NCBI GenBank assembly: GCA_945828095.1
Contig: CALZOZ010000008.1
Span: 1-46,901 of the forward strand
Origin: an uncultured Clostridia bacterium
Lineage (GTDB): Bacteria > Bacillota > Clostridia > Peptostreptococcales > Anaerovoracaceae
DNA: 46,901 bases
Reading direction: 5' to 3'
Of the stretch, positions 28,669 to 29,638 are shown one piece after another (position 1 is the first letter of the stretch; every line of letters starts with the position of its first letter). The translations under genes were made by a program, and so were the position numbers. The notes beneath the pieces were generated by a model. The model made no database searches, was not told where the DNA came from, and was given only the letters and a program-made list of their open reading frames with translations.

Positions 28669-28718
28669 CTTTGGTATAAATCCTGCAAGCGTGTGATCCG
28701 GACTCTACGGAGCGTTTA

Positions 28719-28747
28719 TTGCAGATGTCAGCTGATTGCTGTATAAT
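28719..28747 (+). promoter_or_regulatory. Promoter of the HTH-desulfoferrodoxin gene
   Basis: TTGCAG (28719-28724) and TATAAT (28742-28747) are 17 bases apart. This supports the internal ATG at 28811 as the start. Confidence 0.72.
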
Positions 28748-28810
28748 GTGAGCATGTTGAAAATGCGTGCGCTCATGCGCTGCGGCTCCGATAAGATAAG
28801 GAGGAAATCC

Positions 28811-29395
28811 ATGGATAATGTGAAGATAGGAAATCTTATTAATAAATTGAGGAAAGAAAAAGGCATGACTCAGCTTCAGCTGGCGGAAAAACTCCACATA
28901 AGCGACAAGACTGTTTCCAAGTGGGAGAGGGGTCTGGGCTGTCCGGATGTTTCTCTTCTGACGGACTTGTCCGGGGTTTTCGGTGTGGATCTGGAAAAGC
29001 TTCTGTCCGGCCAGCTGGATGCCAATGAGGAAAGAGGAGGCAATATGAAAAAACTGAATTTCTATGTATGCCCGGAATGCGGCAATGTGATAACAGCAAT
29101 GACTGATGCGGGAGTTTCCTGCTGCGGAAAGAAGCTCAAGGCTCTCGAGCCTGTGAAGGCATCGGAGGAGGAAAAGCTTTCCGTAGAAGTTATCGAAAAC
29201 GATTACTACATTTCGTCTAACCATCCTATGGTCAAGGAACATTATATTTCATTCGTCGCGCTTCTGACAGGTGACAGCCTGACGCTGAAGAAGCAGTATC
29301 CCGAGTGGGACCTTCAGGTGAGAATACCGGGAAGGACCCACGGAAAGCTTATCTGGTACTGCACAGATCACGGACTGTTTTATCAGCTGGTGTAG
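28811..29395 (+). CDS. XRE-type HTH regulator fused to a desulfoferrodoxin-like domain
   Basis: The 194-residue protein has an XRE helix-turn-helix (5-65; MTQLQLAEKLHISDKTVSKW), then a desulfoferrodoxin-like part. Domain I has the Fe(Cys)4 pattern C87-x2-C90 and C104-C105 as in desulforedoxin. Domain II resembles the superoxide reductase centre: HP at H138, EHY at H144, and YCTDHG with C184 and H187. The EKHVPVI histidine of classical enzymes is not seen (EKLSVEVI instead), so one of the usual four histidine ligands seems to be missing. This suggests an iron-based redox or superoxide sensor rather than an enzyme. AAGGAGG at 28798-28804 sets the start. Confidence 0.85.
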   Translation: MDNVKIGNLINKLRKEKGMTQLQLAEKLHISDKTVSKWERGLGCPDVSLLTDLSGVFGVDLEKLLSGQLDANEERGGNMKKLNFYVCPECGNVITAMTDAGVSCCGKKLKALEPVKASEEEKLSVEVIENDYYISSNHPMVKEHYISFVALLTGDSLTLKKQYPEWDLQVRIPGRTHGKLIWYCTDHGLFYQLV

Positions 29396-29423: not shown

Positions 29424-29468
29424 AACTCCACCATTTTTTGAAAAAACATCAAAAATGGTGGAGTTTTT
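29424..29468 (+). terminator. Terminator of the HTH-desulfoferrodoxin gene
   Basis: A perfect 15-bp stem (29424-29438 with 29451-29465) ends in a T-tract on the plus strand. Confidence 0.93.
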
Positions 29469-29521
29469 GTTGTAGAATGAGCGGCTTAAGGCTGTGAGGA
29501 AATAGCATGGCTGAACATAAT

Positions 29522-29537: not shown

Positions 29538-29584
29538 TTTAACATAAATTTACAGGCATGGTGTTATGGATTCGGCGCTCAAAA

Positions 29585-29624
29585 ACTCCACCAAAATCAC
29601 AAAAAATCGCAAAAATGGTGGAGT
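29585..29624 (-). terminator. Terminator of the convergent envelope operon
   Basis: ACTCCACCA (29585-29593) pairs with TGGTGGAGT (29616-29624), and the minus strand ends in a T-run (complement of A81-85). The stem sequence is the same as in the opposing terminator at 29424. Confidence 0.85.
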
Positions 29625-29638
29625 ATCAGTTGCAACTG

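Follow-up and report, generated by a model that had tools for sequence, protein, structure and literature searches.

The gene described here combines a helix-turn-helix (HTH) DNA-binding domain with a desulfoferrodoxin (Dfx) module. It lies in the window, by which we mean the whole 46,901-nt stretch of DNA that was analysed. The gene, its predicted control elements and the codons of its candidate metal ligands are as follows.

28702-28721, + strand: operator ACTCTACGGAGCGTTTATTG, an imperfect palindrome TCTACG-GAG-CGTTTA plus the TTG of the -35 element (EM motif, exact in the window)
28719-28724, + strand: predicted -35 element TTGCAG, which overlaps the operator (its position holds across 150 aligned promoters)
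28742-28747, + strand: predicted -10 element TATAAT, 17 bp from the -35 element (TAnnnT stands at exactly the same place in the aligned promoters)
28800-28804, + strand: ribosome-binding site GGAGG ahead of the ATG (from the sequence)
28811-29395, + strand: HTH-Dfx regulator gene, 194 aa (open reading frame, domain matches, AlphaFold model)
28841-29002, + strand: HTH_3/XRE DNA-binding domain, residues 11-64 (Pfam HTH_3, E 1.3e-15)
29069-29125, + strand: centre I, Cys87, Cys90, Cys104 and Cys105, CX2C-X13-CC (conserved in relatives)
29165-29173, + strand: Glu119-Glu120-Glu121, standing where superoxide reductase has Glu47-Lys48-His49 (L-INS-i alignment and hhalign)
29222-29242, + strand: centre II, His138 (29222-29224) and His144 (29240-29242) (conserved in relatives)
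29360-29371, + strand: centre II, Cys184 (29360-29362) and His187 (29369-29371) (conserved in relatives)
29426-29468, no strand assigned: possible terminator, a 13-bp inverted repeat CTCCACCATTTTT...AAAAATGGTGGAG followed by T5 (from sequence alone; its loop exceeds the limit of the terminator scan)

A second, similar inverted repeat is present at 29584-29625, also 3' of the gene, and both repeats have the form ACTCCACC...GGTGGAGT, the first of them then spanning 29424-29469.

Along the 194-aa protein, the XRE/HTH_3 domain comes first and is joined by a short linker to the desulfoferrodoxin (2Fe-superoxide reductase, 2Fe-SOR) module. The HTH_3 domain passes the Pfam cut-off (57.6 versus 23 bits), and all of the first 106 relatives to be aligned share the SKWE of residues 36-39. 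The second module is divergent: it is borderline against PF01880 (21.5 bits for the whole protein and 23.1 for the domain alone, with a cut-off of 22.2) and scores well under the cut-off of the curated dfx_rbo model (TIGR00320; 33.8 versus 146.9 bits). Its homology to solved 2Fe-SORs is clear by sequence (2ji2/2ji1, E 7e-7), and the AlphaFold model (pLDDT 90.6) has as its top PDB matches 2ji2, 2ji1 and 1y07, at target-normalised TM values of 0.71-0.77, which places the module in the desulfoferrodoxin fold. No solved structure of an HTH-Dfx fusion was found among the structure matches of this model. A sequence-only reading of this DNA had described an HTH protein fused to a desulfoferrodoxin-like module, with four Cys of centre I and His, His, Cys and His of centre II, and had proposed structure prediction as a check. 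The HTH_3 match, the 2Fe-SOR homology and the confident model bear out the fusion, and the residues it listed are Cys87, Cys90, Cys104 and Cys105 and His138, His144, Cys184 and His187.

With the 2Fe-superoxide reductases (2ji1, 1dfx; TIGR00320, PF01880) the window protein shares the fold, the Cys4 centre I and four of the five centre-II ligands. It differs from them in the added HTH domain, in EEE for EKH, in a YPEW motif, in a shorter loop ahead of His138, and in a centre-I spacing that falls two residues short of the SOR pattern CX2C-X15-CC. More than 200 full-length relatives have an essentially invariant Cys4 set, and the architecture is therefore more than chance: among 213 HTH-fused relatives, Cys87, Cys90 and Cys104 are each present in all 213 and Cys105 in 207.

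Centre II in the window protein departs from the SOR pattern at one ligand. It had been noted earlier that the His of EKHVPVI is absent; there is indeed no His at the His49 position, but the implied register, in which EKL is read as EKH and Leu123 replaces the His, was two residues off. That register was ruled out by hhalign and by an L-INS-i alignment that took in stand-alone SORs of related genomes, including intermediate 'LYPEQ' forms (for example L173-L178). The profile-profile alignment by hhalign paired Glu119-Glu120-Glu121 with Glu47-Lys48-His49 (EEE against EKH). Consistent with this, all 22 sequences in which no HTH was detected have a His aligned with Glu121 of the window protein in the L-INS-i alignment; 19 of the 22 are true stand-alone SORs and three are fusion-type domains from short frames (L166, L171, L186). 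The L173-L178 forms belong to a subtype of stand-alone SOR that has EKHVP, LYPEQ and, ahead of the next His, a short loop (mainly VNHVM); this subtype falls between the fused modules and the canonical SORs. In the window protein, Glu121 could serve as a metal ligand in place of His49.

A survey of the fusions for the same loss, also proposed in the sequence-only reading, found it in part of the family: position 121 is other than His in 99 of the 213 fused relatives (Glu in 60 and Asp in 16), but His in 114. The other centre-II ligands are present in 213 (His138), 186 (His144), 185 (Cys184) and 164 (His187) of the 213. All five are retained in 90 fusions (42%), and Glu or Asp at 121 is combined with the other four in 59. 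Cys184 is lost in 0/114 members with His121 versus 28/99 without it, and its loss is usually accompanied by loss of His144 and His187. Because 90 fusions keep every centre-II ligand, loss of His49 did not make the regulator. The earlier proposal that one ligand was lost so that signalling replaces catalysis is not supported by these counts, nor by the operator described below, whose use is alike across centre-II states. In a tree of the domain, built from few columns by a quick method, the fusion requires one change, and the branch that sets the stand-alone SORs apart has an SH-aLRT of 100. The simplest reading of these sequences is an ancestral fusion with a complete SOR-type centre II, followed by replacement of His49 with Glu or Asp in the lineage of the window protein and by disappearance of the site from other lineages. 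The loss of His49 appears to have come later, in a regulator family that already existed. The invariant His138, together with Met140 (209/213), is kept even in members without the remaining centre-II ligands, and this HxM pair may have a role beyond binding the centre-II metal.

The retention of all five ligands in many fusions, and a Glu121 that could stand in for His49 in the window protein, would both fit a trigger enzyme, that is, a protein that is mainly a superoxide reductase and whose HTH merely puts the enzyme under its own control. We regard this as very unlikely. Lys48 of SOR hydrogen-bonds the peroxo intermediate (PMC2824530), but the equivalent residue is not conserved here, being Lys in only 16/213 fusions and Glu120 in the window protein. 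Most of the 28 fusions without Cys184 still have the operator, and the operator is common to other genes. Moreover, the window's genome encodes a separate canonical SOR of 122 aa with EKHVP intact, and superoxide reductase activity is therefore already covered.

To describe the operator, we counted palindromes in 177 non-redundant upstream regions of the family and found CTAC-N5-GTAG in 31, versus 0.25 expected. EM refinement gave ACTCTACGgagCGTttATTG, present in 159/177 regions; the operator scores above 14 bits in 150/177, versus a shuffled mean of 0.25. A matrix trained solely on His121 members recovered the operator in 49/52 Glu/Asp121 members and in 18/22 members without Cys184, with 0 in shuffled sequence. 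When 150 promoters were aligned on the motif, TTG stood at motif positions 18-20 and TAnnnT at 41-46, so that the predicted -35 element is fused to the operator and is followed by a 17-bp spacer and the -10 element. The TTGCAG of the window matches the sigma-70 consensus at 3/6 positions, a weak match, and is hence absent from the promoter-scan listing. A conserved palindromic operator at the gene's own promoter is the pattern of an XRE/HTH_3 regulator. The promoter geometry was considered as a guide to the sign of control and set aside: a site near -43 fits both repression and class II activation, with a weak -35 element and a good -10 element and spacing. The operator is also retained beside broken HTH-Dfx genes in two genomes (L334 in G134 and L370 in G168), as if the regulator were decaying there.

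To find other genes bearing the operator, 297 genomes of the order were searched for it with at most one mismatch, and the genes downstream were then read. Three families recurred: an FMN_red protein, GIY-YIG-like proteins and a CatA-like acetyltransferase. The FMN_red target (223 aa, PF03358) has CX2CX2CX7C in 15/15 homologs examined. The motif of iron-sulfur flavoproteins is CX2CX2CX5-7C (PMC3164229), and in FMN_red fold and Cys motif the targets are predicted to resemble that group. The GIY-YIG-like targets, 113-121 aa long, carry that label from weak, sub-cut-off matches to TIGR01453; a DUF6530 or DUF2087 gene follows some of them. In 20/24 target promoters the distance between the operator's TTGNNN and a -10 element, which lay outside the search pattern, is exactly 17 bp. 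A search that left out the -35 bases (TCTACGNNNCGTAGA, exact, in 17 genomes) returned nine sites, all at family or target promoters. These shared sites, together with the operator-promoter conserved at the family's own genes, support the earlier suggestion of a transcription factor. Neighbouring genes were tried as a clue to function and rejected, as they vary almost everywhere and a close same-strand downstream gene is present for just 7/68 genes.

The distribution of the sites follows that of the regulator. The fusion is found in 33/36 genomes with exact sites versus 97/297 overall (p 4e-15, shared ancestry ignored), and in 20/21 genomes with target sites versus the same 97/297 (p 7e-10, shared ancestry ignored); the latter is the fairer test because the exact-site count includes self-sites. 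GIY-YIG-like homologs bear the operator in 13/17 genomes with the fusion versus 1/13 without it, and no operator was found at the FMN_red homologs of four genomes without the fusion. In one genome (G242), an FMN_red homolog lies directly behind the fusion gene. Two genomes (G225 and G113) have target sites, yet the fusion gene was undetected in them. These patterns bear on a different assignment, in which another XRE-type regulator owns the operator and has the HTH-Dfx gene among its targets. One other XRE gene (L344) likewise has the operator upstream, so that related XRE proteins might share the site, and XRE proteins often have similar recognition helices, as seen in the many HTH-only matches. 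However, operator presence tracks the fusion gene across the 297 genomes, at other genes included, and in G134 the operator is kept beside a truncated HTH fragment, as expected of a decaying autoregulated gene. We consider ownership by another regulator improbable, and take the operator to be that of the HTH-Dfx protein.

In the window's own genome, where operator sites were sought by pattern and not by matrix, the self-site was the only good operator found, and no close homolog of the FMN_red or GIY-YIG-like targets was found. Further targets there were sought among inexact sites with up to 3 mismatches and rejected, the sites being at background (25 versus 43 in the control). The canonical SOR gene (L001) was likewise considered as a target and has no site, its best score being 3.9 bits. 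For the window's organism, the promoter sequence supports autoregulation, and wider targets are suggested solely by relatives.

We consider it probable that the window protein is a one-component redox-responsive transcription regulator, with the 2Fe-SOR module as its dimerisation and sensor domain, acting via an operator fused to the -35 element. The sequences themselves show the domain architecture, the conservation of the operator-promoter, the presence of the site at other genes and its joint occurrence with the regulator; binding of the operator by the protein, iron in the centres, dimerisation and redox sensing we infer. The XRE domain would recognise ACTCTACG-N3-CGTxxATTG, an imperfect palindrome that is fused with the -35 element of the gene's own promoter. 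It would bind in the same way, in relatives having them, at the promoters of the FMN reductase (iron-sulfur-flavoprotein-type), small GIY-YIG-like and CatA-like acetyltransferase genes. 2Fe-SORs are homodimers, and a dimer would sit on the operator beside the -35 element, probably held together by the SOR-type module. A change at the iron centres, whether in redox state or by binding of superoxide, O2, peroxide, NO or a redox-cycling compound, would then alter DNA binding; the sensing of superoxide or iron, as suggested earlier, is compatible with this scheme. Of the two centres, centre I is likelier to be the indispensable sensor core: it is invariant, and some members have dropped centre II but still carry the operator. 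The part of centre II would be to tune this sensor.

The same loss of centre II can be taken differently. If centre I held a structural zinc, as in other zinc-ribbon proteins, the module would bind a small molecule or partner with no redox sensing. The X13 spacing of centre I, two residues under that of SORs, and the dispensability of centre II in 28 members would agree with this, and the CatA-like targets, together with natural fusions to acetyltransferase-like and methyltransferase-like domains (recognised by eye), would fit a drug or metabolite sensor. On the other hand, the centre-II ligands are retained together or lost together, a pattern that speaks for a functional metal site in the majority of members, and the FMN_red targets have the Cys motif of iron-sulfur flavoproteins. 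We judge a structural zinc unlikely.

SoxR is a MerR-type regulator with a 2Fe-2S cluster that acts from the promoter spacer. The HTH-Dfx protein would resemble it in joining a metal centre to a DNA-binding domain and in controlling a small redox/detoxification regulon, but differs in being XRE-type, in using a SOR module and in a site at about -43, and it is outside the SoxR family. By analogy, a SoxR-like role in chemical stress is plausible given the acetyltransferase and flavoprotein targets and the two natural fusions. More tentatively, a single recruitment of a SOR in anaerobic Bacillota may have supplied the sensor for a new class of iron-based regulator. Such a regulator would control its own gene and a small redox/detoxification regulon by way of a dedicated operator-promoter and would work in a SoxR-like manner, with the superoxide site drifting from intact to Glu-substituted to absent and the Cys4 iron centre left as the core sensor. 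Graded centre-II states within one family would then show a transition from enzyme to sensor.

The architecture itself is already known. As described in the available part of its paper, SORGOdb (PMC3116461, 2011) has a class HTH-Dx-SOR of 19 proteins with an HTH before the Dx-SOR module, a sequence class whose members are listed with at least the SOR active centre. On that description, the window protein is alike in its N-terminal HTH, followed by a Dx (Cys4) domain and then a SOR domain, but differs in a Dx spacing of 13 instead of 15 and in having 4/5 centre-II (His4Cys) ligands, with Glu121 at position 49; because it lacks the complete His4Cys centre, it is a variant of the class and not a full member. 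The available part of the SORGOdb paper contains neither the operator nor the candidate targets, and a literature search with subscription journals mostly outside its scope found no experiment on HTH-Dx-SOR fusions. What is newly found is the operator and the candidate regulon. With the promoter geometry, they make HTH-SOR fusions a directly testable regulator family in anaerobes, and the candidate targets link the family to an anaerobe-specific flavoprotein group. TrtA of Treponema denticola was considered as a relative and rejected, being a protein of 104 aa with no Dfx module described.

Two relatives extend the fusion at its C terminus, both extensions being judged by eye. One (L416, MT835563.1 16718-27296), filed as 'Bacteriophage sp.', is an HTH-Dfx gene with the operator upstream and a GNAT-acetyltransferase-like extension. 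The other (L163, ORF from 1267, + strand) encodes a 481-aa HTH-Dfx protein whose extension is methyltransferase-like. A phage origin of the fusion was rejected, as MT835563, the best match in the phage collection, has bacterial-looking genes around the fusion; MT835563.1 is probably a bacterial contig. Finally, in the assembly of the window's genome (G000), many contig ends contain the string TCTACGTCTCGTGGG / CCCACGAGACGTAGA (for example at C9:7-21, C65:8-22 and C14:31800-31814), which looks like leftover sequencing adapter, Nextera-type, in the MAG.
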